Positions 36,421 to 54,441 of a DNA stretch of 64,000 bases are shown here, piece after piece. How positions within the stretch are numbered: the first letter of the stretch is position 1; each line of letters starts with the position of its first letter. The translations under genes were made by a program, and so were the position numbers. This DNA is from Niallia alba (GTDB lineage Bacteria > Bacillota > Bacilli > Bacillales > Cytobacillaceae): contig NZ_JABBPK010000001.1 of assembly GCF_012933555.1 (NCBI RefSeq), forward strand, positions 1,652,001-1,716,000, read 5' to 3'. The notes under the pieces are model-generated. The model searched no databases, was not told the DNA's origin, and saw only the letters and a list, made by a program, of their open reading frames with translations.

Positions 36421-36526
36421 CCACCAAGCGAAAGCGCGGTAGCTGGAAAAAATTAAGTATTAAAAAAGAGAGCTTCCTTTTGTAAAGTAGAGTTTGACTA
36501 GAACACTACGAAAAGGAGAGGCTCTC

Positions 36527-37864
36527 ATGAATCAATGTAACACAAAAATGCCATCATTAAAAGAATTGGAAAAAACTTTATTTCGAACACTACAAATGAC
36601 GTTTCAAGAAATCCTTATTCAAACGTTAGAAAATTGGGATCAAGAGATTGCCAAGCAACGAGACAAAAGAAGATTTGCTTTACGTGATAAACGAGAAATA
36701 CGATTAGATACAGCGTTTGGAGCTGTGGAGCTGAAGCGTAATTATTATTTTGATCGTGTGACTAAAAAATATATTTGTCTATTAGATCACTATTTACAGT
36801 TTCAGGGGAATAAGGGATTTAGTCCGCTACTAGAAGAATGGGGGTTAGAACTAGCGACGAATGGCTCCTCCTATCGAAAGGCGGTGGAAACGTTCGAACA
36901 ATTTTTAGGCTATTCGGCGATGAGCCACGAAGCATTACGGCAACATCTTCTTCAAACAAGCGTACTTCCCGCTAAGGAAAAACGCCCTTTTCAAAAGGTA
37001 TTGTTTGTCGAAGTAGATGGATTATATGTGAAGAGTCAAGAAAAGAAAAAGCGTGGATGGGAGTTGAAATTCGCCGCTGTACACGAGGGATGGAAAGAAA
37101 ACGGAAAGCGAATCAGGCTCCGAAATAAAAGGCATTTTCTTTATGAAGGAAAAGAACCCTTTTGGGAAGCCTTTGAAACGTTCTTACAGAATCATTATGC
37201 GTATGATCCTACCCAAACCTTGCTTATTATTAATGGTGATGGAGCAGGCTGGATAACGGCATGTCGGGAGTATTTTCGGGAACGCGCCTTTTTCACCATG
37301 GACCGTTTTCATGTCGCTCGTTCGATGAAGCAACTAATGAAGAGCCATCCTTGATACCGCTACATGAAAAGAGCGTTAAGAAACTATCAGGTAGAAACAT
37401 TACTTCTAGAGTTGAATAGCGCAGTAGGAACAATGGATACACCAGAAAAAGAAGAAAAACTAGAGCATTTCCTTGCCTTTTTAACGCATCATCAGGAAAC
37501 CATAAAAGATTACCGTAGTTGGTTACAGGAAAAAGGTGTGGACACGACAGCGTATCGTCCAATGGGAAGTGCAGAGGCGATGATGAATCAATTAGCCAAA
37601 CGATTAAAGAATGGAAGAGCATGGAGCAAAAAAGGGGTCATGAGCATGGCACGTTTGTGGATTGGGTTGAAGGATGATCTATCTATCCAAACGATATATG
37701 GAAAATGGGAAAAAGCCACGGAAAAATCAAAGAAAGAGCATCGACCGAAAAGAAAAATACCCACAAAATTAGTAACAGAAACCGTGCGTCAGAACATGCC
37801 ATACTTAAATCAAGCGATTGGAAAACCCGTTCACTTTGCCTTACAGGGATTAAAAGGTTTTTAA
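36527..37864 (+). pseudogene. ISLre2-family transposase with premature TGA
   Basis: Starts at ATG 36527 with AAAGGAGAGG ahead. Reads MNQCNTKMPSLKELEKTLF to KQLMKSHP, then TGA at 37352-37354, then in the same frame YRYMKRALRNYQVETLLLELNSAVG to the end ALQGLKGF. RPMGSAEAMMNQLAKR and VDGLYVKSQEKKKRG are ISLre2 hallmarks. One C-to-T change (CGA to TGA) explains the break; all other parts are intact, so inactivation is recent. Confidence 0.88.
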
Positions 37865-38004
37865 AAAATGAGAGAATCAACAGTTGGAAGAACAAAACCA
37901 ATTGGAAAGCGGATACAAACTTAGAGGTTTTACTTTATAAAAAAGGGAGCTAAAAAAACTCCCACAAAAACTTGACTCAATCCAGCATTAGGCATAGCAA
38001 ATCA

Positions 38005-41000
38005 ATTTATATCCCACTACGTTCAGATAAAAGGAAGCGAATTACAGTATGCATTTTTAGGATCATTCAAATTTATATCCCACTACGTTCAGATAAAAGT
38101 ATTATGATGAAAGTTCAAAGAATGTACATCTATACAAATTTATATCCCACTACGTTCAGATAAAAGGTATAAATTGCCTAAAGAACCACCAAAGCATCCA
38201 ACAAATTTATATCCCACTACGTTCAGATAAAAGTGAAGGTCGTGAAGACATGGGTATTCATCTTGATATTTCATTTATATCCCACTACGTTCAGATAAAA
38301 GAAGTGATGCCAGAAGAAGTTTTGTTACCAGATATACATTTATATCCCACTACGTTCAGATAAAAGACCTACTACAAGTTCTTTTGATATTGTTGATCCT
38401 AGATTTATATCCCACTACGTTCAGATAAAAGAGTGCTAACCGTAATGAGACAAATTGGGTACAATTATCATTTATATCCCACTACGTTCAGATAAAAGTT
38501 TGATTATATATTTTATCCCCAGTTTTTAAATCTAATTTATATCCCACTACGTTCAGATAAAAGTACATGAGTGAGTTCCTAAGACCTCTACTACACACAT
38601 TTATATCCCACTACGTTCAGATAAAAGATACTAATCAATCAGATATGAAAAATGTTAAAGTAATTTATATCCCACTACGTTCAGATAAAAGTGAGTTAAT
38701 TCAATGACACTAGAAGAATTTAAATCAATTTATATCCCACTACGTTCAGATAAAAGGAACTGGTATTCCATGATAAAGGGTTTTTATGATAAATTTATAT
38801 CCCACTACGTTCAGATAAAAGTATCTACCTACAAATATACAAACGTACTTTACAAACATTTATATCCCACTACGTTCAGATAAAAGCACAAAAGGCGTAA
38901 CGATTCATTCGCCATATCCAAAATTTATATCCCACTACGTTCAGATAAAAGCTAGTGCAACGGGGAGAGCTGAACGCAGTGGACTGTAATTTATATCCCA
39001 CTACGTTCAGATAAAAGGTTAAGAGATAAGTTTAAAACACTTGGTTATACATAATTTATATCCCACTACGTTCAGATAAAAGTTAGAATCAGAAAGATTT
39101 AAAGTAGAGTTTACTCAATTTATATCCCACTACGTTCAGATAAAAGAAAGACATAAGAAGTATATTGAGGATATGTTAGAATCATTTATATCCCACTACG
39201 TTCAGATAAAAGAAACATTGGAAACTTGGTACAGTAGCGTTCACACGAATTTATATCCCACTACGTTCAGATAAAAGCCAAAAGGCAAATACTATGTCTT
39301 TAATGAATCCCAATTTATATCCCACTACGTTCAGATAAAAGTAGAGCTTGTTTGTACTTCTTTTGACGTTGTCTTAGATTTATATCCCACTACGTTCAGA
39401 TAAAAGTTTTTTAAGTCAACAGTTTTTTCTTCAGCTTTCAAAAATTTATATCCCACTACGTTCAGATAAAAGCTCGAATAGGCTTTAAGCCTTTATCATT
39501 CATTTCATATTTATATCCCACTACGTTCAGATAAAAGAATAAAACTATAAATCATAAAGGTGGAATTATTAAATTTATATCCCACTACGTTCAGATAAAA
39601 GAATAATTCTGATGTTCGTTGCACTATGTGGAATGGTATTTATATCCCACTACGTTCAGATAAAAGGGTGAGGGTGCTATAGTTAAAGTTGTAGCTGGTT
39701 CTGCATTTATATCCCACTACGTTCAGATAAAAGCGGAGAGAAGGCACGAACATTAACGCAATATCTACAATTTATATCCCACTACGTTCAGATAAAAGAA
39801 CTATTTTAGGTTCTGATTATTTACTTCAATTCTTATTTATATCCCACTACGTTCAGATAAAAGTGCATTAGCTGCTCTGCCTCTTCTTCGGTTAATCCGA
39901 TTTATATCCCACTACGTTCAGATAAAAGCATAATTGTTGTTTATGACGCTTGAGGCATTGACTGATTTATATCCCACTACGTTCAGATAAAAGCGTTGGA
40001 TCAACTGGCGGTGGAGTCGGTTCTCCTGGATTTATATCCCACTACGTTCAGATAAAAGGAAAAACCACCAAAGCATCCAAGCTAAAATAATTAAATTTAT
40101 ATCCCACTACGTTCAGATAAAAGGCTCTGATCTCTACAGTATTATCATGAATTTTATTAATTTATATCCCACTACGTTCAGATAAAAGATAGTTGAGCGT
40201 ATAGACGTTTATCAGTTTGTTTGAAATTTATATCCCACTACGTTCAGATAAAAGAAAAATTGATGTTGGAATTGACAAACGTTCTACTAAATTTATATCC
40301 CACTACGTTCAGATAAAAGGCGGGGGAGGATAATGTTTGATTTTGTAGGTGATTTGTTATTTATATCCCACTACGTTCAGATAAAAGTAATAAAAATTTT
40401 CTTGTTTATACAAGACATTCTGAATTTATATCCCACTACGTTCAGATAAAAGTACTTGGATGCCTTATATTCGTGGTTTCATAATAATATTTATATCCCA
40501 CTACGTTCAGATAAAAGAAAAAATTGATGTTGGAATTGACAAACGTTCTACTAAATTTATATCCCACTACGTTCAGATAAAAGGTTGTAATGATTTTAGG
40601 ATATGCAATCGCAATACCATTTATATCCCACTACGTTCAGATAAAAGTTAGAGATGGCAGCCAAAAGTGACGTTTTAAAATCATTTATATCCCACTACGT
40701 TCAGATAAAAGGGTCGTGGTGATTATACCATTGCTCCAATTGTTCCTGAATTTATATCCCACTACGTTCAGATAAAAGTTGATTAGCTAAAAGTAAGATT
40801 TCTTCATCTCTCATTTTATTTATATCCCACTACGTTCAGATAAAAGAAAAGGTAATAATAGTTATATAGATTATGATAAACTATTTATATCCCACTACGT
40901 TCAGATAAAAGTACTTTTACAAGTGATGGAATACATCCTAATACTTTATTTATATCCCACTACGTTCAGATAAAAGAAAGATAGTTGGACTTATGCTAGT

Positions 41001-42798
41001 TTACAAGCTTCTACATTTATATCCCACTACGTTCAGATAAAAGTCAAAAACATGATTAGAAGAAATAGTTTTTAATTCAATTTATATCCCACTACGTTCA
41101 GATAAAAGGGGAAGTTCTAATGGCAGAAGCAAGAAGTATCGCTCATTTATATCCCACTACGTTCAGATAAAAGACATCATCCGCACTTCAATGAAGTGAA
41201 GCTTATTTCATTTATATCCCACTACGTTCAGATAAAAGTGAAATGCATTGGGAATCCTTCTTCCTTTTTTCATCCCATTTATATCCCACTACGTTCAGAT
41301 AAAAGGGATCTGCAGAACGACCTTCTGGGTTATCTTCTTCATCATTTATATCCCACTACGTTCAGATAAAAGAATATAGTTTAGAGATTGAGTAATTCTA
41401 TCTCCGTCAATTTATATCCCACTACGTTCAGATAAAAGAGAATTTTTAAACCTAAATTCGATAGATCTATCAGTAATTTATATCCCACTACGTTCAGATA
41501 AAAGAATGAATCTATGGTTCGTTTAGTAGTTCTTAGTGCATTTATATCCCACTACGTTCAGATAAAAGCGTATTAGCATTCGGTAAGAAACGATCTCCTA
41601 ACGTATTTATATCCCACTACGTTCAGATAAAAGGCGTCTTCTTGTCGCTGGCTTTTTCGGTTCTTCCTCATTTATATCCCACTACGTTCAGATAAAAGAA
41701 AACATTCCATCAGTATTTAATGAAAGCTGTAATCATTTATATCCCACTACGTTCAGATAAAAGATTCCCCTCAGCATCTTGCCTAGCATCCGTTATTTCA
41801 TTTATATCCCACTACGTTCAGATAAAAGTGATTGGGTTGGTGAGGAACATAATCCATTTACCAGATTTATATCCCACTACGTTCAGATAAAAGTAGAATT
41901 ATTCTCATATGCTTCTATATTTGTCCCCAATTTATATCCCACTACGTTCAGATAAAAGCAAACGGTCAAACATACGACACATTACCGAAAAGGCATTTAT
42001 ATCCCACTACGTTCAGATAAAAGAATCCAACGACATGGTTAATGAATGTATTTACTCCATTTATATCCCACTACGTTCAGATAAAAGCCTTAATTAATGA
42101 TGCGGTTAGAGTCGTACTTTCGTAATTTATATCCCACTACGTTCAGATAAAAGCCTTAATTAATGATGCGGTTAGAGTCGTACTTTCGTAATTTATATCC
42201 CACTACGTTCAGATAAAAGGGAATTATTTACATCTGAACCGGCTGTTTATTTCATATTTATATCCCACTACGTTCAGATAAAAGACTTTTGCAGTTGCAT
42301 TAGAAAATGCGGTTATCAAATTTATATCCCACTACGTTCAGATAAAAGACACGATCGTTATAGAATCATTCACTTAAACGAAATTTATATCCCACTACGT
42401 TCAGATAAAAGGATAGTTGCTCATTTATATTCACTCTCCTAATAAAATTTATATCCCACTACGTTCAGATAAAAGATTTAAGTGAAGACAGCTTGATACA
42501 AGTTGATATCATTTATATCCCACTACGTTCAGATAAAAGTTCTCTTAATCCATAAGGAATTCTTTTGCTTCTATCTATTTATATCCCACTACGTTCAGAT
42601 AAAAGTAAAGAGCAGGATTAATTCCTGTTCTTTTTTTTAATTTATATCCCACTACGTTCAGATAAAAGTTCCACAAAAGATAGTACAGCTTCATTTGAAT
42701 TTACATTTATATCCCACTACGTTCAGATAAAAGTTATTTATCCCCTCTGCTGAGAAGCCACCCATCTTAATTTATATCCCACTACGTTCAGATAAAAG
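38005..42798 (-). CRISPR. CRISPR array 1, 74 repeats and 73 spacers, type I-B
   Basis: Repeats of 29 bp; on the plus strand each begins ATTTATATCCCACTACG and ends TTCAGATAAAAG. Spacers are about 34-39 nt, period about 65. Read in crRNA direction (minus strand) the repeat starts CTTTTATCTGAACG and ends GGGATATAAAT, differing from array 2 at both terminal bases. The leader is at the 42.8-kb end, so newest spacers lie there. Duplicated spacers occur at 42088/42154 (identical neighbours) and 40255/40518. The distal end is perfect in repeat sequence and stops at an IS element. Confidence 0.98.
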
Positions 42799-42900
42799 CC
42801 TCAAATTTATCATACGAAAAACCTATATGTATCAAGGTTTTGAGGCGATTGTTGTTTTAATAATATTTCTCCATTTTGCAGCAAACCTATAGTTGTGTAT
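42799..42900 (-). promoter_or_regulatory. Leader of CRISPR array 1
   Basis: On the minus strand the motifs GCAAAA, AATATT, GCCT and CCTTGATA precede TTTGAGG and the first repeat. CCTTGATA (42837-42830) stands exactly 31 nt from the repeat, as in the leader of array 2. Such shared elements direct spacer insertion and contain the array promoter. Confidence 0.75.
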
Positions 42901-43123
42901 TTTTTTATCTTATAAAAAAGTAAGCAAACCCTTGTCACTTCTATGTTTGAAGCTGTTCTTAATAAAAATAGTTTCGCTGCAGATTTTGAGCGTAATTATA
43001 GTAATTATAATATAGTTGGTTGTCATTTTATATATTTAATCACTGTTTTTGAGACAGGTTATCATTATATATAGTATATTATATTTATTAGTAAATCGGA
43101 ATTTATTTTAGGAGCTGTTTTAG
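42901..43123. other. Divergent region between array 1 leader and WYL gene
   Basis: AT-rich, with TATATAGTATATTAT at about 43070-43084 as likely promoter of the WYL gene. It includes ATTTATTA (43083-43090), which equals the first 8 nt of the mini-CRISPR pseudo-spacer. No gene seen. Confidence 0.4.
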
Positions 43124-44068
43124 GTGAAAATGAATAAGGTGGAAAGACTTTTTAAAATTATTGACTACCTTAGTGCTGGAGATTTTGTAACTGCGGAGGA
43201 ATTGGCTCTTATTACAAAGACATCTAAACGCAATATTTACCGCGATATAAGTGAATTAGAGACTGTTGGTTTCTATTTTCATACTGAGAAAAAAGGCTAT
43301 CTATTATTGGAAAAGCCTATTAAACATAATGTTGGTTTAACAGATAGAGAGTGGCTCTCACTTCTATTAACACAAGCACTTCCAAAGCAAAATTTGATTT
43401 CAGAAAACTCGATGCTTTCAGAATACAAGGTTGGACGAAAGAAAACAAGCAAAGAAAAAGGATGGAATCGGGTAATTAGTGAACGAATATTACACCATTT
43501 CCTTTATCGTGATAACTATGATGAAAATTTAGTGATTTCGCTTGTCAAGGCTATCGAAAAAAGAAGAAGTTTAATGATTGCTTATTATAGTCCTACAAAT
43601 GAAGTGGAAACAAAAAGAATAATTGATCCCTATTATCTTATCGATAGAGATGATCATTATTATATTGTTGCTTATTGTAATGAAAAAAAGGAGTTTCGTA
43701 ATTTTCGCATAGATCGTATCAGATCATGGCAAATAGAAAAGCAAATCTATGAGTTTCAAGAGGAGTTTTCTATTGATAACCATCTAGCAAATTGGAAAAT
43801 GGATTATACAGATGAAAAAAATAAATTTGTTGTACGATTTAGTAAAAAAGTAGGGAAATACATTAAAGAAAAAAAGTTTTATGATAAGAATGTTATAATA
43901 GAAGAAGAGGAAGATGGTTCAGTAATTTTAACTATTGAAACAATGAGTAAATTATTTTTACGATGGGTAAGGAAATATGGAATGGATGCTGAAGTAATGG
44001 AGCCTCTTCATATAAGAGAGCAGTTAAAGAATGAGTATAAAAAGCTATTGGATATTTATGGGAAATAA
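43124..44068 (+). CDS. WYL-domain transcriptional regulator of the CRISPR-Cas locus
   Basis: 314 aa, GTG start with AGGAG 9 nt ahead. HTH at residues about 5-60 (VERLFKIIDYLSAGDFVTAEELALITKTSKRNIYRDISELE), WYL ligand-binding domain at about 145-220 (SLMIAYYSPTNEVETKRIIDPYYLI, FRNFRIDRIRSW), and a C-terminal WCX-like part (WVRKYGMDAEVMEPLHIR). WYL proteins bind nucleic-acid ligands and control several CRISPR systems. Its mRNA seems to continue into the degenerate repeats downstream and stop at the 44180 terminator. A TGAC-N7-GTCA site lies before cas6. Confidence 0.9.
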   Translation: MKMNKVERLFKIIDYLSAGDFVTAEELALITKTSKRNIYRDISELETVGFYFHTEKKGYLLLEKPIKHNVGLTDREWLSLLLTQALPKQNLISENSMLSEYKVGRKKTSKEKGWNRVISERILHHFLYRDNYDENLVISLVKAIEKRRSLMIAYYSPTNEVETKRIIDPYYLIDRDDHYYIVAYCNEKKEFRNFRIDRIRSWQIEKQIYEFQEEFSIDNHLANWKMDYTDEKNKFVVRFSKKVGKYIKEKKFYDKNVIIEEEEDGSVILTIETMSKLFLRWVRKYGMDAEVMEPLHIREQLKNEYKKLLDIYGK

Positions 44069-44154
44069 GTTATATCTGAACAGCCGTGGGATATAAAAAT
44101 TTATTATTATTTCATTAAGCATTAATTTTTATTTGAACGTAGCGGGATAACTAT
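44069..44154 (+). ncRNA. Degenerate mini-CRISPR (repeat-spacer-repeat), CreR/CreA-like crRNA
   Basis: Directly after the WYL stop codon. Pseudo-repeat 1 (44069-44098) reads GTTATATCTGAAC, AGCC, GTGGGATATAAAA; pseudo-repeat 2 (44126-44154) reads TTTTTATTTGAACGTAGC then GGGATAACTAT. Both align with the array repeat over most positions and keep TGAAC and GGGATA. Between them is a 27-nt pseudo-spacer starting ATTTATTATTAT. Cas6 processing would give a crRNA-like RNA with handle ATATAAAA. Known CreA and CreR RNAs of type I systems have this form and silence a promoter through partial base pairing. The assignment here is inference. Confidence 0.7.
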
Positions 44155-44179
44155 CTATTAATTAATTTTTTGCAAGTAG

Positions 44180-44214
44180 TGGAGTAGGGTGATCAATACC
44201 CTACTCCATTTTTT
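44180..44214 (+). terminator. Intrinsic terminator closing the WYL/mini-CRISPR transcript
   Basis: TGGAGTAGGG pairs perfectly with CCCTACTCCA around a 9-nt loop and is followed by TTTTTTGTGTTTTTTT. It separates the WYL unit from cas6. Confidence 0.9.
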
Positions 44215-44241
44215 GTGTTTTTTTGAAAAACATGTGTTCGC

Positions 44242-44279
44242 TGACGTTTTTTGTCAGTTTATCTATTATAATAATAAAT
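44242..44279 (+). promoter_or_regulatory. Putative cas operon promoter with WYL-type operator and pseudo-spacer target
   Basis: Inverted repeat CTGACGTTTTTTGTCAG (44241-44257) has the TGAC-N7-GTCA layout seen at the other WYL regulator gene. TATAAT follows at 44267-44272 without a good -35, as for an activated promoter. On the minus strand 44279-44268 reads ATTTATTATTAT, equal to the first 12 nt of the mini-CRISPR pseudo-spacer, with TTT on its 5' side. Confidence 0.5.
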
Positions 44280-44374
44280 AAAAATAGTGTGAATATTGCG
44301 TATTACCTTTATTTGGTATAAAATGAAATAGTAAGGTAATATTGGATAAAATAATATTAAATAGGAGTGATAAA

Positions 44375-45076
44375 GTGAGATGTGTGTTTAGTTTTAAAAT
44401 CGAGTACTTCCCAATACGGTATCGGCTATTACTATTATCGTACATAAAGGAAATGATTCGCTCACAATCAGAAGAGTTCTATCAGTCGTTTTTTGTAGAG
44501 AGGGAAAAAGAGACAAAGAGATTTTCTTTCGCTCCATATTTTCCGAATATTCAAATCGATGGAGATTTAATAGTTTCAGAATCTTTGAATCTAACAGTGA
44601 CCAGTTCAAATATGGAAATGATGATTTACCTCATTAATGGTAGCCAGCAAAAGAGCGAATACCACTATAAAGAAAGCATTATGAAATTTACTGGGATGAA
44701 AATGATCAAAGAAAAGACAATTGTACAGTCACAATATTGGTTTAAAACTTTAACACCGATCTTAGTGGAATCAAAAGAGAGAAAACCATTGCTTTTCGAT
44801 GATGCTAATTTTGAAGAAGAATTAAATATTATTAGCTCAAAAATGATGAAGAGTAAGTATGGAAGACCTTTATACCAACCAATTAAAATATTAAAACATC
44901 AAATGAAAAAAAGTGTTGTGAAAGAAAATTTACATCAAGCATCAGGTGATTTATTTTTCACAGGAAATACAGGTCGATTCATGGTAGAAGGAGATCCTCG
45001 TGATTTAAATATATTCTATTTAGAGGGCATAGCTCTTCGTAGCAACCAGGGATTTGGCTGTATAGATGTTTTATAA
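44375..45076 (+). CDS. cas6: CRISPR pre-crRNA endoribonuclease Cas6
   Basis: 233 aa from GTG 44375 (AGGAG 7-8 nt ahead); the upstream TTG at 44342 has no site. RAMP fold protein, MRCVFSFKIEYFPI at the start, and the glycine-rich ending GIALRSNQGFGCI typical of Cas6. Cuts the repeats of both arrays and probably the mini-CRISPR. First gene of the cas operon; cas8b follows after 24 bp. Confidence 0.92.
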   Translation: MRCVFSFKIEYFPIRYRLLLLSYIKEMIRSQSEEFYQSFFVEREKETKRFSFAPYFPNIQIDGDLIVSESLNLTVTSSNMEMMIYLINGSQQKSEYHYKESIMKFTGMKMIKEKTIVQSQYWFKTLTPILVESKERKPLLFDDANFEEELNIISSKMMKSKYGRPLYQPIKILKHQMKKSVVKENLHQASGDLFFTGNTGRFMVEGDPRDLNIFYLEGIALRSNQGFGCIDVL

Positions 45077-45100: not shown

Positions 45101-46868
45101 GTGACAATAGCAAGAATAGAGACTGCTGATGCGCTTTTAAATGCTGGGATTACGGGCTTTGTGAATATCTTAAATGATGCCAATATTACCTCTTACAAAT
45201 GTGGTAATAACTATGTAGAGTTTGACATTTCAATCTTAGAAAATTTCCATCATTATTATTTTGATTATTTCGCAAATAGGTATAAAGAACTGTTATCACA
45301 TACTTTTATTGTAACAAAGGGAAAGGATTTTCTTTATAAAAAAGAATGGGATGATAAGACAATAGAAGATTGGAATAAATATATCGAAAGAGCAAAAAAG
45401 AATCTTAAAAGCAATAGTTATCTAGCTGCATATAAAATGATGTCTTGTACAGAAGTAGATTTAGTAGAAATGGAAAAAAAGCTAAAAAAGCTGAAGTTAA
45501 AAAAGAATCAAACTGTTTCAGATTCAGATATTCAAAATGAAATCCATGAACAAATACACTATCTGCAAACTATTATTGACTTTTTGGAAAAAGAGGAGGT
45601 GGAAAAATATATTCTTGCAAAAAATATTGCCTATACAATTATTGGTAATTTTTGGGGTGGAGTATCTTTCTTACATAAGTCATCGACAACAGCTGATATT
45701 TTTGAAGAGTATAAAAAATATTTTATTGATCCAATCAAGCTTTATTATGAAGAAGATCATACAAAAGATAAATATGTATGCTTTATTAGCAATACGCCAA
45801 TTAAGAAATTATCAAAACCACATGCTTATGATATGGCTTGGCTAACAAAAATGGGGGTAGATATGAGCAGGAAAACATCTCATTTTTGGAATTTGCAGTC
45901 AAACACATGCTATATCTCACCGCTTATTAATTTTATTTATTCGTGTATTCCTGCTGGGTTTACTTTTATGAATGATCAAGGATATTTTGTCAATTGTAAC
46001 AGTTCTGTTGAAGCTCTAACTAGATTAAATAACAATCATGAAATGTATGTCATTAAATCAGATGATAATATTCAGCTACTAGAAGCAAGAACATATTATC
46101 AATTGATAGATTTTATGGAGAATCAAAAACATAAGAAAGCAAAGTATGAAATAGATAATATTCAAGTCATTAAATTTAGCAATACAGATAATAAGACAGA
46201 TAATTTTCGACCATACACTTATAATGTACTATCAAAAGATAAATTGGAAGTTATTAAACGGCATCAAAAATCATTAAACAATATGATTAACAGGGTAGTG
46301 AAGATGGGCGATGGTTCATACCTTAGGATTTACCAAAATGTGATGGAACGTTTATACAGCAATAAAAATCAATTTGATTTAATTGGTTTATTATGTCGGA
46401 CAAATTTGCCGAGCAAAGCAGAAGAGCCAATTAGAAGTAATAGACTCCTATTAGATATTGTTTACTTAAATAATAGTTTTATAGGGACAATTATTCAAAA
46501 TCAAAAAGAGAAGGAGGATGGTTCGATGAGTGATTATTATTCCTATGTTCGTAGGGAAACCATTGCATATATGGAAAATGCGGGTAGGAAATTAGCTTAC
46601 AATTATAAAGTTAGAAATGCCAGTAATAAATTAGGTGGTATTACTTATCGTTTACTGAATGCTTTAAAAACAAAGGATACAGGAAAGTTTATGGACACTT
46701 TTATCAATGCTCATTTATATGCTGCAAGAGAAGGAGAATTAATCATTCCGCCGCAAATGACAGAGGCATTAACAGATGAGGATAAATTGCAAACGCTTGG
46801 CTATGCATTTGTTTTAGGATTACGTTCTGGACTTAGCCCTAAAGGAGATAAAAAGGAGGAAGAAGAAA

Positions 46869-46876
<8 letters not shown>
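45101..46876 (+). CDS. cas8b: Cascade large subunit Cas8b (Cst1-like)
   Basis: 591 aa, GTG start. Large, poorly conserved subunit of the type I-B effector that reads the PAM. I assign it from position between cas6 and cas7, its size, and its IETADALLNAGITGFVNIL start together with the C-terminal helical bundle (NKLGGITYRLLNALKTKDTGKFMDTFIN), which fit the Cst1/Cas8b family of Tneap-like I-B systems. Overlaps cas7 by 8 nt. Confidence 0.85.
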
Positions 46877-48511
<1,635 letters not shown>

Positions 48512-48530
48512 AGGACAAGCTATGGAAGTG

Positions 48531-48560
48531 AATAAGACTAGGAATTCCTAGTCTTATTTT
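48531..48560 (+). terminator. Palindrome with short T-run between cas5 and cas3
   Basis: AATAAGACTAGG and CCTAGTCTTATT pair perfectly around AATT, followed by TTTTG. This may be a weak terminator or an mRNA-processing/stability hairpin that sets cas3-cas4-cas1-cas2 expression below that of the Cascade genes. Confidence 0.55.
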
Positions 48561-48575
48561 GAAAGGAGTATCATT

Positions 48576-50837
48576 ATGAATAATTTATTTCTTGCTAAGT
48601 CAGATGTACAATTAGAAGAAACGATAGTAAAGCATACGAAAGCATTATTAGAAGAGTTTGATAGGTTAAAAGTTATTTATTGCAATATTCCGAATTTAAG
48701 GTACGATTTATTGGAAATAGCGTGTGTTTACCATGATGTCGGAAAAATTAATACAAAATTTCAAAATAAATTATTGAAAGCATTAAAAAAGACCGATTGT
48801 TTATTGGAAGATCTTTTACCGAAAGCGGGGGAAGTTCCCCACGGATATTTAAGTTGTGCATTTATTCCTTATAAAGAAATATTAGAAAATAAAGAGGAAA
48901 GAGAAATTGTAGCACAAGCTGTTTATTATCACCATAATAGATCTGCAGCCAACCCTAAAGATTTGAAAGAAACGATTCTTTATGATTTGCCCAAATATTA
49001 TCTATCATTTAAAGAAGCATTTCCATTTCTTTTAGCTGAACCAAAAGCAAATTTTAAGCCGTATCTTAATAGAAGAATAAGAAAACAAAGAAATCAAGAA
49101 CAGGCTAAACAATTTGTTCTTGTAAAAGGCTTGCTTAACAAAATTGACTATGCTGCAAGTGCACATATCCCCGTGGAAATTGCTAATCCTGGTCTAGATA
49201 ATTATGTAGATAAGTTCCTTGCGGTTAAATATAAGAGCGGAAGAAATGAACTGCAAAATTACTTGCTGGAACATCAAAAGGAAAATAATATTGTGATTGC
49301 TTCGACTGGTATAGGAAAAACAGAAGCAGCACTATATTGGATTGGAGACAGCAAAGGCTTTTTTACACTTCCGCTTCGAGTATCGATTAATAGTATTTAT
49401 AAGCGTATAGAGAGTGAAATTAATTTTAAAGAAGTTGCATTACTACATTCAGAAACAGAAAGTGAATATGTGAAAAATGATCTTTATTCAATTGATTATT
49501 TTGAAAAGACAAGACAGTGGTCGATGCCTTTGACCATTTCTACGCTTGATCAAATGTTAGATTTTGTCTTTAAGGAAGAAGGGTTTGAAAAGAAATTAGC
49601 TACATTAGCCTATTCCAAATTAGTAATAGATGAAATTCAAATGTATTCACCGAAAATGTTGGCTTGTCTTTTGGTTGCTTTAAAAGAGATAACAGATATA
49701 GGTGGGAAATTTACTATTATGACAGCAACTTTTGCTCCATTCTTGTTAGATTTGATGGTAGGAAAATTAAATATTCCATTTAAACAATCATGCGATCCTT
49801 TCTATAAAAAATTGAATGGAGAAGTTATAGTTCGGCATCGTCTGATTGTAAAGAACGAGCAATTAAATATAGAGGATATTATGAAAAATAAGATAGACAA
49901 AAAAATATTGATAATCGTAAATACTGTTCAAAGAGCACAAGAAATACATGATGCATTAAAAGAGCGTGACGATGTATTTTTATTTCATAGTAGATTTACG
50001 AAAATGGATCGTAAAGAGAAAGAAGCTGCTATTCAAGAAATGGGGAAATTGGAGAATAAGAGCAGTGGTATTTGGATTGCGACACAAGTGGTAGAAGCAA
50101 GTGTAGATATTGATTTCGATGTTCTTTATACAGAATTATCAGACTTAAATGGTTTATTTCAGCGAATGGGTCGAGTTTATAGAAATAGAATATTAGATCA
50201 TGAACGAGTTAATGTATTTGTTTATGATGGTGGAAATGATTATCCATCAGGGATTAGTTATCGTGATAAATATAGTGTAGTAGATAGTAGTATTTTTGAA
50301 ATTTCTAAACAAGTTTTGCAGGAATATAGTTCTCCAGTTATTTTTACAGAAGAGTTAAAGATGGAATTAATAGAAAAAAACTATACTACACAGCGTTTAG
50401 AAAAGAGTACTTATTATAACGAAGTTAAAGAGTTTTTGGATATTTTAACAAGTATAGAGGAATATGATGAAGACTTAGATCCTCGAATTACAGATTTAAG
50501 AGAAATATTTAATGAAACTATTGTTCCATATTCCGTTTATCAGGAAAATCAAAATACAATAGAGGAATTAGTTGCTAAATATAGTAAAACGTTAAGAATA
50601 AAAGCAACGAATGCGATAAGAGAAGAGCGTGCGAAACTTCGTGATAAATTATATGAATTTACAGTAGATATTCCACAATATAGAGTTACAAATGCAAGAA
50701 AATTAAATAGAGAGGAACAATTTTTAAAGATAGGTAGCTATGAATCTATTAAAGTAATTGATTTTGAATATGATTCAACGGTCGGTCTAAAATATTCGAA
50801 TGATAAAAAATTATTTTCTAGTAGCCAGATTATGTAG
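48576..50837 (+). CDS. cas3: CRISPR helicase-nuclease Cas3 with N-terminal HD domain
   Basis: 753 aa. HD nuclease at about 10-200 with H53-D54 (YHDVGKI) and YYHHNRS at about 117. SF2 helicase: Walker A STGIGKTE with K248, DEIQ near 352, TATF, and QVVEASVDIDFD then QRMGRVYRN. Degrades DNA marked by Cascade. All motifs are present. AAAGGAG site 7-8 nt ahead of ATG. Confidence 0.95.
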   Translation: MNNLFLAKSDVQLEETIVKHTKALLEEFDRLKVIYCNIPNLRYDLLEIACVYHDVGKINTKFQNKLLKALKKTDCLLEDLLPKAGEVPHGYLSCAFIPYKEILENKEEREIVAQAVYYHHNRSAANPKDLKETILYDLPKYYLSFKEAFPFLLAEPKANFKPYLNRRIRKQRNQEQAKQFVLVKGLLNKIDYAASAHIPVEIANPGLDNYVDKFLAVKYKSGRNELQNYLLEHQKENNIVIASTGIGKTEAALYWIGDSKGFFTLPLRVSINSIYKRIESEINFKEVALLHSETESEYVKNDLYSIDYFEKTRQWSMPLTISTLDQMLDFVFKEEGFEKKLATLAYSKLVIDEIQMYSPKMLACLLVALKEITDIGGKFTIMTATFAPFLLDLMVGKLNIPFKQSCDPFYKKLNGEVIVRHRLIVKNEQLNIEDIMKNKIDKKILIIVNTVQRAQEIHDALKERDDVFLFHSRFTKMDRKEKEAAIQEMGKLENKSSGIWIATQVVEASVDIDFDVLYTELSDLNGLFQRMGRVYRNRILDHERVNVFVYDGGNDYPSGISYRDKYSVVDSSIFEISKQVLQEYSSPVIFTEELKMELIEKNYTTQRLEKSTYYNEVKEFLDILTSIEEYDEDLDPRITDLREIFNETIVPYSVYQENQNTIEELVAKYSKTLRIKATNAIREERAKLRDKLYEFTVDIPQYRVTNARKLNREEQFLKIGSYESIKVIDFEYDSTVGLKYSNDKKLFSSSQIM

Positions 50838-50853
50838 GGGGAGAGATAAGAAG

Positions 50854-51375
50854 ATGCTGCAAACGAGAACAGTTGGTGGCGTAGATTTAGCTTACTATAT
50901 TGTCTGTAAAAGAAAGCTTTGGTTATATAAGAAAGGAATTGGGATGGAAAGCGAATCAGATAGAGTGCTCGAAGGATCTATTCTTCATGAGACTTCGTAT
51001 CCTCGTCTTAATAAAAAAGAAATCCTTATTGACGGTGCATTTAAGATAGATGCAATTGATGGGGAATATGTTAGAGAAATTAAATTATCTAGTAAAATGC
51101 AAGAATCAGATAAAATGCAAATGCTGTTTTATTTGTACCAGCTTTTTTTAAGAGGAATGAAGAAAAAAGGCTTAATCAGCTATACAAAAGAAAAGAAAAC
51201 GGTGGAGGTATTGTTGACAGAAGAAAATAAGAGAAATATTCAGCGAGCAATTGCGGGAGCTTATCAAATTATCGATCGAGACACTCCACCTCCATTAAAG
51301 AAGTTGAATTATTGTAAAAGTTGTGCCTATTACCCATTTTGTTTTTCAAGAGAGGATGACGACTATGATGCGTGA
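50854..51375 (+). CDS. cas4: CRISPR adaptation exonuclease Cas4
   Basis: 173 aa from ATG 50854 with GGGGGAGAG ahead; the longer frame start lies within cas3. Iron-sulfur cysteines C18 (YYIVCKRK) and a C-terminal CKSCAYYPFC group; RecB-type nuclease residues around EIKLSSK. Trims prespacers and selects the PAM. Its end overlaps the cas1 start. Confidence 0.93.
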   Translation: MLQTRTVGGVDLAYYIVCKRKLWLYKKGIGMESESDRVLEGSILHETSYPRLNKKEILIDGAFKIDAIDGEYVREIKLSSKMQESDKMQMLFYLYQLFLRGMKKKGLISYTKEKKTVEVLLTEENKRNIQRAIAGAYQIIDRDTPPPLKKLNYCKSCAYYPFCFSREDDDYDA

Positions 51376-52351
51376 TCATTATGTTTTTTCAAATGGAAGA
51401 TTAAAAAGAAAAGACAATACCATATATTTTGAAAATGAAGAAGGGCAGAAAAAGCCACTTCCTATTGAAAAAATTCAAACATTGCATTTATTTGGAGAAA
51501 TTGATGTGAATACAAAGCTATTAACTTATTTAAGCCAGTATGGAATTACACTACAGTTTTATAATTATTATGGATTTTTTACTGGTGCGTTTAATCCTCG
51601 AGATGCTAAAGAATCTGGTCATGTGATTGTCAAACAAAGTGAGCATTATTCAGATAAGTATAAACGGCTGTATATAGCTTATCAATTTTTAAATGGAGCA
51701 GTTCATCATATGCTTCGCAATATGCGTAATTATAAAGAAGGAACAGCGGAGTATATAGAAGGAATCCAATTGTTATTTAGTCAATTGCATACGTCCACAA
51801 CTATTCCTGAATTAATGGGTAGAGAGGGGCAAATACGCCACCTTTATTATCAATCGTTTAACCATATTTTTAAACAAGATTTTGTTTTTGAAAAGCGAGA
51901 AAAACAGCCGCCACGCGATCCAATCAATGCTTTAATTTCTTTTGGAAATACATTGATGTATCGGATTGTATTAACAGAAATTTATAAAACTTCTTTGAAT
52001 CCAACTATAAGTTATCTTCATGAGCCCTCAACTAAGAGATTCTCCTTAAGTTTAGATATTGCAGAAATTTTTAAACCATTGATTGTAGATCCAATTGTTT
52101 TTTCTCTTATTAATAGAAGGCAACTTAGCAAAAAGCATTTTGATTATTTAGAAGGAGAGATTTGTTATTTAAATGAAGAGGGAAAGAAAAAATTTATTAC
52201 GGCATGGGAGGAAAAACTAAATCAATCAGTTAAACACCGTATGTTAAAAAGAAATACAACATATCGTTATTTAATTCGTTTAGAATGCTATAAATTAATT
52301 AAGCATGTAATTGGTGACGATGTGTATAAGCCGTTGAAAGCGTGGTGGTAG
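51365..52351 (+). CDS. cas1: CRISPR integrase Cas1
   Basis: 328 aa. Two adjacent ATG codons (51365, 51368) overlap the cas4 stop; GAGGATGA lies 5-8 nt ahead. Metal ligands E154 (GREGQIRH), H219 (LHEPSTK) and D231 (SLDIAEIFKP) are intact. Starts DHYVFSNGRLKRKDNTIYF, typical of type I-B Cas1. Inserts new spacers at the leader end with Cas2. Confidence 0.95.
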   Translation: MMRDHYVFSNGRLKRKDNTIYFENEEGQKKPLPIEKIQTLHLFGEIDVNTKLLTYLSQYGITLQFYNYYGFFTGAFNPRDAKESGHVIVKQSEHYSDKYKRLYIAYQFLNGAVHHMLRNMRNYKEGTAEYIEGIQLLFSQLHTSTTIPELMGREGQIRHLYYQSFNHIFKQDFVFEKREKQPPRDPINALISFGNTLMYRIVLTEIYKTSLNPTISYLHEPSTKRFSLSLDIAEIFKPLIVDPIVFSLINRRQLSKKHFDYLEGEICYLNEEGKKKFITAWEEKLNQSVKHRMLKRNTTYRYLIRLECYKLIKHVIGDDVYKPLKAWW

Positions 52352-52354
52352 CAA

Positions 52355-52618
52355 GTGTTTGTTATTATCACATATGATGTAGGTGAAAAAAGAGTGGGGA
52401 AAGTATGTAAAAAGCTTCGAGAGTATCTCGATTGGACACAAAATTCTGTGTTCGAAGGGGAAATAACCATTGGTAAATATACACAATGTATGGCAGATTT
52501 AAGTAACATTGTAGATAAAGATACCGATTCTATTTATGTATATGAGGTTAAAAATCCGCGAAATATAAAAAAAGTAATTCATGGAAGAGAAAAGAATCCT
52601 TTCGATTTATTTTTATAA
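52355..52618 (+). CDS. cas2: CRISPR adaptation protein Cas2
   Basis: 87 aa, GTG start three bases after cas1. Ferredoxin-like fold with FVIITYDVGEKR and the conserved acidic residue D8; ends KNPFDLFL. Structural partner of Cas1. Last cas gene; array 2 leader starts within about 120 bp. Confidence 0.95.
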   Translation: MFVIITYDVGEKRVGKVCKKLREYLDWTQNSVFEGEITIGKYTQCMADLSNIVDKDTDSIYVYEVKNPRNIKKVIHGREKNPFDLFL

Positions 52619-52847: not shown

Positions 52848-54441
52848 GTTTTATCTGAACGTAGTGGGATATAAAGTGCTGCACCAATTCTCGTAAAGAC
52901 TTGGTCAAATAAGTTTTATCTGAACGTAGTGGGATATAAAGCTCTTTATAAGATGGGGATAAATAAGTAACGACTGCGTTTTATCTGAACGTAGTGGGAT
53001 ATAAAGTGAAGTAGATCGCACTCAATCCATGTCTGAAAACAAGGTTTTATCTGAACGTAGTGGGATATAAAGTCATCTTCAGCACCCCCCTTCAATAAAT
53101 CAATATTAGGTTTTATCTGAACGTAGTGGGATATAAAGAAAGAAACGATAGAGCAAAAAACATATAATTGCTAAGGTTTTATCTGAACGTAGTGGGATAT
53201 AAAGATGCGAAATATCTACGATTTTTTTCGTCATTATTCTGTTTTATCTGAACGTAGTGGGATATAAAGCAGAAATCAAATCAATTTACATTACAATCAA
53301 AACAGTTTTATCTGAACGTAGTGGGATATAAAGATTAAAGAAGAAAGCAGACGGAGGGCTAGGAGGAAAGGTTTTATCTGAACGTAGTGGGATATAAAGT
53401 TGGCTTGGCGTTCGAGTTGCCGGCTGGCTATGAATTGTTTTATCTGAACGTAGTGGGATATAAAGAATACTCAACCATTGCAACTGTTTTTCCATAACCC
53501 TGTTTTATCTGAACGTAGTGGGATATAAAGTATAAGATTCGGGCATATAGCAATCTATTTTTCTTGTTTTATCTGAACGTAGTGGGATATAAAGAAGAAA
53601 TAATGATTGTTAGCGCTGCAGTAAGCAAGGGTTTTATCTGAACGTAGTGGGATATAAAGGAAGAAATCGAACGTGTAGCAGAGTGGGAAAGAATTGTTTT
53701 ATCTGAACGTAGTGGGATATAAAGTTGACTTGGGAAATGGATATGCTAAACGGAAATTTAATGTTTTATCTGAACGTAGTGGGATATAAAGTTGTAGCTA
53801 GTTGCTTAACCGGGAGACGTTTATAATAGTTTTATCTGAACGTAGTGGGATATAAAGGTTGTAACAAATTCAATTAGTTTATCGATTTTAAAGTTTTATC
53901 TGAACGTAGTGGGATATAAAGTGCTTATAGTTTAGTAATTAATGAAAATATCTTCATGTTTTATCTGAACGTAGTGGGATATAAAGTATTCCAACGCTTT
54001 AATGCTTTTTCACTAGCTTTTTGTTTTATCTGAACGTAGTGGGATATAAAGAAGGAGTGAGTCGCATGAATTTCTTAATTGGCGCCGGGTTTTATCTGAA
54101 CTTAGTGGGATATAAAGAAGTAACGATATAAATTATCTGTGCTATTAGTAACCGGTTTTATCTGAACGTAGTGGGATATAAAGGAAGGATTTGGACCTAC
54201 AAAAAATGATCAATCAAACGTTTTATCTGAACGTAGTGGGATATAAAGGAATAACCTTGTATGATTCCTAATTGCCCTTTATAGTTTTATCTGAACGTAG
54301 TGGGATATAAAGTTTATAATCGCATCTTCTAAAGCCATTGCAATCGGTTTTATCTGAACGTAGTGGGATATAAAGGACGATTGAACAGTTCCGCCACCGC
54401 TTGAAGTTGACGGTTTTATCTGAACGTAGTGGAATATAAAT
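52848..54441 (+). CRISPR. CRISPR array 2, 25 repeats and 24 spacers, type I-B
   Basis: 29-bp repeats starting GTTTTATCTGAACG and ending GGGATATAAAG; spacers about 35-38 nt. The repeat at 54089-54117 has G to T (GAACTTAG). The terminal repeat at 54413-54441 has G to A (GTGGAAT) and final T, the usual decay at the trailer end. Leader lies behind cas2, so the array is transcribed on the plus strand, away from array 1. Confidence 0.98.

Follow-up and report, generated by a model that had tools for sequence, protein, structure and literature searches.

The locus under study lies in a 64,000-nucleotide stretch of Niallia alba DNA, hereafter the window, and it is a type I-B CRISPR-Cas locus of the Cas8b1/Cst1 type with the gene order cas6-cas8b-cas7-cas5-cas3-cas4-cas1-cas2. 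The first gene of the operon is cas6 (44375..45076, plus strand; TIGR01877, PF01881), and the remaining genes from cas8b to cas2 occupy positions 45101..52618 on the same strand. The start of cas6 was taken as the GTG at 44375 on the basis of the N-termini of relatives, compared by eye, and of the Shine-Dalgarno sequence, while the open reading frame list gives a TTG at 44342. CRISPR array 1 (38005..42798, minus strand, 73 spacers) lies upstream of a gene encoding a WYL-family regulator with HTH_11, WYL and WCX domains (43124..44068, plus strand; Pfam PF08279, PF13280 and PF25583), which is also recognised by the PADLOC 'WYL' CAS-associated models. This gene ends with the stop codon TAA at 44066-44068 and sits between array 1 and cas6. 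CRISPR array 2 (52848..54441, plus strand, 24 spacers) is found downstream of the cas operon.

Other peculiarities of the locus were noted. The CXXC pairs present in the Cas8b protein of locus L048 (CFNC, CYICPIC) read CFIS and CYISPLI in cas8b of the window (45101-46876) and of the sister species G175, so that, as judged by eye, these cysteines have been lost in an otherwise intact protein. Spacers 10 and 11 of array 1 (crRNA order; 42088-42190) are identical, a repeat-spacer duplication. A transposase-like gene (36494-37953), presumably of the ISLre2-like family, is broken into two reading frames near 37354/37364.

Directly behind the WYL gene, two degenerate copies of the array repeat enclose a short pseudo-spacer. 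The first pseudo-repeat, psiR1 (44069..44098, plus strand), is 30 nt long with one inserted base and begins directly after the WYL stop codon; it is followed by a 27-nt pseudo-spacer (44099..44125, plus) and by the second pseudo-repeat, psiR2 (44126..44154, plus). This arrangement had been described by the sequence-only reading, and both its coordinates and its description proved correct and beyond chance: psiR1 and psiR2 score 38 and 30 against the array repeat, and in 200 dinucleotide shuffles of 42810-44342 no score rose above 22 against the repeat or 26 against its reverse complement. Rfam lists psiR1 (44069-44098) as CRISPR-DR43, in the orientation of the Rfam model, with 27.4 bits and an E value of 0.12, a hit that does not reach the gathering score of 35. 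Alone, psiR1 folds into a stem (-6.0 kcal/mol) and psiR2 hardly folds (-0.2 kcal/mol), and within a 145-nt transcript the two pseudo-repeats are predicted to pair with each other. The strong intrinsic terminator that the same reading placed after the unit was also recovered (44178-44210, plus strand, 14 pairs and a T tail); terminator-like sites in 42800-44450 number four, against a shuffle mean of 0.7.

The unit does not belong to an ordinary CRISPR array, because its repeats are degenerate and its pseudo-spacer of 27 nt is shorter than the 34-39 nt of the array spacers. A mini-CRISPR of degenerate repeats is a feature of CreR, the cas-autorepressing RNA, and here such a unit is found within the cas locus and outside the arrays. 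When the own genome was searched with both arrays (E <= 0.01; 23 of 46 and 27 of 51 first-look candidates scored), the mini-CRISPR was the sole ectopic place returned, besides the arrays themselves and two single-spacer matches. Assuming that Cas6 cuts 8 nt before the end of each pseudo-repeat, as in the anatomy of I-B crRNAs, the predicted mature RNA would span 44091..44146 (plus strand) and consist of 8 + 27 + 21 = 56 nt, with the 5' handle ATATAAAA supplied by the last 8 nt of psiR1 (44091-44098), the pseudo-spacer as guide and the 3' handle supplied by psiR2, whose own last 8 nt are degenerate.

The PAM of the system was derived from the spacers of array 1, array 2 and G175, which were compared with genus relatives, phages and a plasmid allowing up to 7 mismatches (6 in one search). 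CCN was found on the 5' side of the protospacers for 13 of the 19 distinct matched spacers, namely array 1 nos. 1, 2, 4, 5, 7, 8, 18, 19 and 54, G175 no. 14, and array 2 nos. 6, 19 and 21; the six others were array 1 nos. 3, 27, 41 and 45, G175 no. 17 and array 2 no. 1. Many of the protospacers in genus relatives were clustered, and these places are probably prophages. The phage and plasmid searches returned 4, 2 and 2 records, of which H1, H2 and H7 were looked up, and sub-threshold matches (L105, L116, L126, L127 and L131) stayed outside the PAM count. Two of the non-CCN spacers have unusual matches. Spacer 27 of array 1 (41044-41079) matches a DUF262 gene of the Aeromonas plasmid NZ_KP738729.1 at 36/36 positions; the plasmid's host is a distant one, and the flank on the PAM side reads CTA. 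Spacer 1 of array 2, the nearest to cas2 (52877-52912), shares 36 identical nt with the host's own mutS-like gene (L144; name given by eye), and the flank ATC instead of CCN suggests that this is probably tolerated self-targeting.

With this PAM, a target of the guide is found at the start of cas6. The protospacer lies on the minus strand at 44336..44362, with its first base at 44362, and it matches 15 of the first 17 guide positions and 20 of all 27; positions 1-5, 7-14, 16 and 17 match, and positions 6 and 15 do not. The PAM, CCT (44363..44365, minus strand), is the complement of part of the cas6 Shine-Dalgarno sequence AGGAG (44363-44367). In the scoring used, CCN was required and guide positions 6 and 12 were uncounted, and the target CCT followed by ATTTAATATTATTTTAT agrees with the guide ATTTATTATTATTTCAT at 14 of the 15 positions that count. 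In 5000 dinucleotide shuffles of 44155-44432 the score never exceeded 13, a value that occurred three times, the 97 array spacers gave at most 10/15 on the same stretch, and no other CCN site in the whole 64-kb window reached even 12/15. A search of the genome (5.24 Mb) with a pattern lacking positions 6, 12 and 15 returned three sites with at most one mismatch, the cas6 site among them; position 15 was dropped from this pattern only after its mismatch was known. When neither the PAM nor the skip rule was applied, the cas6 site (15/17) was still the best in the 1.36 kb searched. Two points speak against the target reading, the A+T-rich composition of the guide and the mismatch at position 15. 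A seed-type partial complementarity to the cas promoter/leader region next to the system's own PAM, as in CreR, is thus observed here.

An A+T-rich match of 12 contiguous nt on the minus strand at 44279, upstream of the Shine-Dalgarno site, was the first candidate target, and it was dropped when the spacers gave CCN as the PAM. Its first 12 positions match in both species, but its flank is TTT, and its shuffle P values (0.04 in the window and 0.01 in G175) compare poorly with 0/5000 for the CCT site, so action of the guide there is highly improbable.

The same unit is present at the same place in the sister species. G175 and the genome analysed here are the only carriers of this Cas8b among 13 genomes of the genus, and in the family it was found in 3 of 193 genomes, that is, these two and one partial match. 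The repeat scan of G175 gave scores of 34 and 30, the latter reached by 1 of 200 shuffles. Its pseudo-spacer is identical over 27/27 positions, and differences from the window amount to 4/30 in psiR1, 1/29 in psiR2, five in the 23 nt past psiR2, one in the terminator (in the loop) and 29/315 at third codon positions of the WYL gene. The sequence-only reading had named neutral decay of the pseudo-repeats in relatives as evidence against function, and in the one close relative available the comparison favours function. The 30 nt of target plus PAM differ at four positions, which are the N of the PAM (CCC in G175) and guide positions 6, 18 and 23; as the guide itself is unchanged, pairing is kept where Cascade needs it.

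These data also bear on the possibility that the unit is a functionless, decayed two-repeat remnant of a CRISPR array, which might be suggested by the degenerate repeats, by the end of array 1 only 1.3 kb away and by the poor folding of psiR2, but which the 27/27 conservation of the pseudo-spacer against five differences in the 23 nt after psiR2, its length below that of array spacers, and a PAM and seed match to cas6 that recurs in other lineages make the least likely explanation of all.

A wider comparison has been carried out with a Cas8b alignment, which was run against 84,980 species, each represented by a single genome, and yielded 45 loci. Adding the window, G175 and G293 brought the number examined to 48, of which 46 have a cas6-sized open reading frame before cas8b; cas6 was assigned in the compared loci by position and length, not by profile. 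For the repeat scan 47 loci were fetched and two (L060 and L085) dropped for want of a cas6-sized frame before cas8b, leaving 45 and the window. Loci devoid of arrays were scanned with a pool of 45 repeats, and the weak, chance-level matches that resulted were mostly uncounted. No mini-CRISPR upstream of cas6 was seen in L049 or L051, and in L050 there was only an array with a degenerate terminal repeat. Relatives were also sought through the WYL protein: a search of genome contigs gave none, and a family search (135 of 193 genomes) gave 30 loci, of which L003-L010 were read and only L003 (G175) is the same I-B locus, L004-L010 being type I-C-like or without cas neighbours as judged by eye. 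Among the type I-C-like loci, the gaps of L004, L008 and L009 were inspected, and a repeat-end motif scan of L004-L007 and L010 found one repeat-like match, at the start of L010.

Twelve loci with paired degenerate repeats before the cas operon, window and G175 included, were used for a cross test, for which the second repeat of L086 was identified by eye and the ectopic repeats of L092, L093 and L095 were left out. With positions 6 and 12 uncounted, the own guide matched its own region at 13-15 of 15 positions in 10 of the 12 loci (13 in L078), and L063 and L088, at 9 and 10, yielded no target; the 130 foreign pairings of guide and region reached at most 12 of 15. When all 17 positions were counted, own pairs gave 10-16, foreign pairs did not exceed 13 (reached by 4 of 130), and L063 (10), L078 (13) and L088 (12) were not above this foreign control. 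If 17 positions were counted and no PAM was required, the best site was not the CCN one in 4 of the 12 loci (L063 and L088, with ties in L078 and L086).

In a blind search, every handle-like motif outside the arrays was taken as a possible guide. Of the 46 loci, 13 gave a guide/target pair scoring 14 or more and 33 gave none, and the same threshold was reached in 3 of 920 shuffled runs. The target precedes cas6 or a WYL-cas operon in ten of the thirteen (the window, L047, L052, L056, L064, L073, L082, L083, L086 and L090; in L082, L083 and L090 its placement was measured from the true start judged by eye) and something else in L076, L091 and L092. Within positions 1-14, the mismatches of the ten cas-front pairs fall solely at 6 or 12. 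As positions 6 and 12 had been skipped when the sites were picked, the picking was redone for each pair of positions six apart in the cross-test loci with a target, counting the sister species once and leaving out L063, L088 and L047: over these nine loci, ignoring positions 6 and 12 gave 128 of 135 summed matches, and ten other pairs of positions six apart gave 115-117. To judge by these alignments, different guides covary with different targets across loci, and the tolerance at 6 and 12 is read as the periodicity of a type I effector. The pairing of guide and target is kept in relatives, both in G175 and, counting the window and G175, in 10 of 46 loci.

Several of the compared loci carry guides that face other genes. 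In a Bacilli MAG (L092:3262-4166; L093:7870-8762), the guide of L092 matches 16 of 17 positions, with the PAM CCA, at the front of a DUF3800 gene beside the Cas8b locus, and this unit could possibly be a Cascade-repressed protein effector of the CrePA kind; in L093, the DUF3800 gene and an ectopic repeat are present, yet there is no pair. In Ruminiclostridium (L091:5870-6271), a guide located behind a 110-aa open reading frame without a Pfam match targets the front of that same frame, with CCT and mismatches only at 6 and 12, a possible CreTA or CrePA. The guides of L067 (8879-9215) and L076 (815-1060), with 13 and 14 of 15 matches, have their targets before tiny open reading frames with ribosome-binding-site-like motifs, that of L067 being followed by a terminator-like hairpin; both look CreT-like by eye. 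In L063 (8160-8850), paired degenerate repeats directly precede a GNAT acetyltransferase gene, and a target was not found.

Taken at the level of sequence, the mini-CRISPR very likely encodes a CreR RNA acting at cas6, whatever promoter it is transcribed from. A CreR-like role had been preferred to CreTA by the sequence-only reading on the grounds that no small toxin gene was visible. The PAM-flanked seed match at the cas6 start, which that reading lacked, now supports the preference, as does the same logic of guide and target in other Cas8b loci with unrelated guides. The lack of a toxin gene itself was borne out, with no candidate between psiR1 and cas6 among open reading frames of at least 5 codons, a listing to which a toxic RNA without a reading frame would be invisible. 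The absence of an associated toxin, at that length, agrees with CreR.

Among the other explanations, the one that survives best concerns the origin of the RNA and overlaps the CreR reading, which holds for either origin. The RNA could be transcribed from a promoter of its own inside the end of the WYL coding sequence, and the adjacency of the two would then be mere tight packing. Other loci make guides away from a WYL tail, and the promoter matches of L086 (12/12, shuffle P 0.00) and L090 (score 11, with TG before the -10; P 0.01) exceed those of shuffles. Against it, the best sigma-A-like hexamer pair in the 120 nt before psiR1, all WYL coding sequence, scores 7 in the window and in G175 with a shuffle P of 1.00 (200 shuffles), the lowest match among the 13 loci considered, of which the other 11 score 8-12. 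This contrast is weak, because most of the relatives' matches do not exceed shuffles: nine of them score 8-10, within the shuffle range, L064 and L073 among them, where a TATAAT stops some 1 and 6 nt short of psiR1 (score 10, P about 0.26). A separate promoter is therefore regarded as a serious possibility, held at appreciably less than an even chance. Transcription of the WYL gene through the mini-CRISPR as far as the terminator is considered somewhat probable, and origin from the WYL mRNA is the simplest reading because there is no gap after the stop codon, the terminator stands behind psiR2 and no promoter of its own is recognisable.

The other alternative is that the unit is a CreA-type antitoxin RNA that represses a toxin RNA or protein (CreTA/CrePA). 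Such a unit, too, would lie beside cas genes and consist of a short pseudo-spacer between degenerate repeats, and the guides of L091 and L092 do target the fronts of non-cas genes. In the window, by contrast, the sole good target is the front of cas6 and no match to a toxin promoter was found; the open reading frames of at least 5 codons from psiR1 to cas6 either have no Shine-Dalgarno-like motif or start within the terminator stem-loop, and the ATG at 44232 is missing in G175. This explanation is accordingly rated very unlikely.

Returning to the CreR reading, its placement was compared among the loci. A WYL gene follows the mini-CRISPR in L056, L064 and L073; in L067 (13/15) and L083 the mini-CRISPR lies between WYL and cas6 on the opposite strand, and in L052 no WYL gene was recognised among the listed open reading frames. 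The placement in the WYL tail thus appears special to this genus, as far as sampled. The cas promoter contains a perfect inverted repeat, CTGAC-N7-GTCAG (44241..44257), a candidate WYL operator with 0/17 differences in G175; with up to 3 mismatches allowed, the window contains this pattern once against 3.6 expected, a count that is uninformative. Inverted repeats of the TTCGCTGAC..TGTCA type were seen by eye near WYL or cas genes of L004, L007 and L049, and repeats of the 44241-44257 type are candidates for a shared WYL operator; that the WYL protein binds at 44241-44257 is a guess. As an inverted repeat like those beside other WYL genes lies in the same cas promoter, the suggested coupling of protein and crRNA control of the cas genes is plausible. 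The candidate cas6 promoter is an extended -10 like TGGTATAAA (44314..44322, plus strand; start at about 44329), assigned by eye and unchanged in G175; an alternative promoter-like pair lies at 44241-44269, and the number of such sites is at chance level. An antisense promoter-like site (44293-44265, 11/12) was discarded since G175, with 6 inserted bases there, does not preserve it.

The proposed mechanism would start with WYL transcription running through the mini-CRISPR as far as the terminator. Cas6 would then cut both pseudo-repeats, releasing a 56-nt RNA with its handle and 27-nt guide, and Cascade would bring this RNA to the cas6 leader, where it would read CCT in the complement of the Shine-Dalgarno sequence and the guide would pair with the protospacer at the matching positions given above, a match seen as sequence. 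Pairing at 20 of 27 positions would presumably be insufficient for cutting by Cas3 and, by analogy with the work on CreA and CreR, enough to block transcription just past the promoter. Cas abundance would be kept low in this way and would rise once crRNAs or anti-CRISPRs draw Cascade off CreR. If the guide derives from the WYL mRNA, WYL transcription would set the strength of the brake; no second good target of the guide, for example at the WYL promoter, was found in the window.

CreR is reported from type I (I-B and I-E) and V-A systems, generally without a toxin; it is a crRNA-like RNA that directs the effector, by partial complementarity, to the promoter of the system's own cas operon and represses that operon (PMC12737573; PMC13131331). 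The unit described here is alike in these respects and differs in that it follows the stop codon of the WYL regulator without a gap and that the complement of the cas6 Shine-Dalgarno sequence contains the PAM. For CreA of CreTA, nucleotides 1-5 and 7-11 are described as needed and 6 and 12 as dispensable (PMC8501985); the psiR1-psiS-psiR2 design, this seed with its tolerance at 6 and 12, and a PAM that lies opposite a purine-rich promoter element are shared with that system, whereas the target here is cas6 instead of a toxin and no creT was seen. BrxR and Sll7009 are likewise WYL regulators beside a defence operon; the former acts as a repressor by way of inverted repeats, and the latter reportedly represses a I-D locus. 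Unlike the present case, they control as proteins, and the available portion of that source mentions no guide RNA in the 3' UTR of the regulator (PMC9122601). Racrs, solitary phage-encoded repeats that act as anti-CRISPRs, are also repeat-like RNAs outside arrays (PMC10651486), but they are viral, and the unit of the window is chromosomal, within a cas locus, with a guide and a PAM-flanked target. In Haloarcula, guides of up to 24 nt were found safe with full matches (PMC10989794), and the 27-nt guide here exceeds that length, though its match is partial. Among the literature matches listed (titles and beginnings of abstracts, with subscription literature mostly uncovered), none concerned a CreR located in a regulator's 3' UTR. 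The original 2023 CreR report is said to have dealt with the origin of CreR from mini-CRISPRs and may list relatives of the WYL-tail unit. By its sequence-testable features the unit is very probably a CreR, and its placement in an apparent WYL 3' UTR would be a variant.

A joint proposal can be put forward tentatively, at slightly below an even chance. A cas-repressing guide would be cut from the 3' UTR of the WYL mRNA, and the Cas6 cut 22 nt past the WYL stop codon would strip the terminator stem and tie WYL synthesis to the supply of Cas6 and Cascade; the WYL protein (at 44241-44257) and CreR (at the cas6 Shine-Dalgarno sequence) would then be the protein and RNA arms of one transcript acting on one promoter.

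A predicted guide RNA has now been supplied with a target. The covariation of guides and targets from Bacilli and Clostridia to Marinitoga suggests that guided autorepression of cas genes is a recurrent feature of this Cas8b1 lineage. If the origin from the WYL mRNA is true, the protein and RNA regulators of one operon would be carried on one transcript, and Cas6 could control the mRNA of the regulator.
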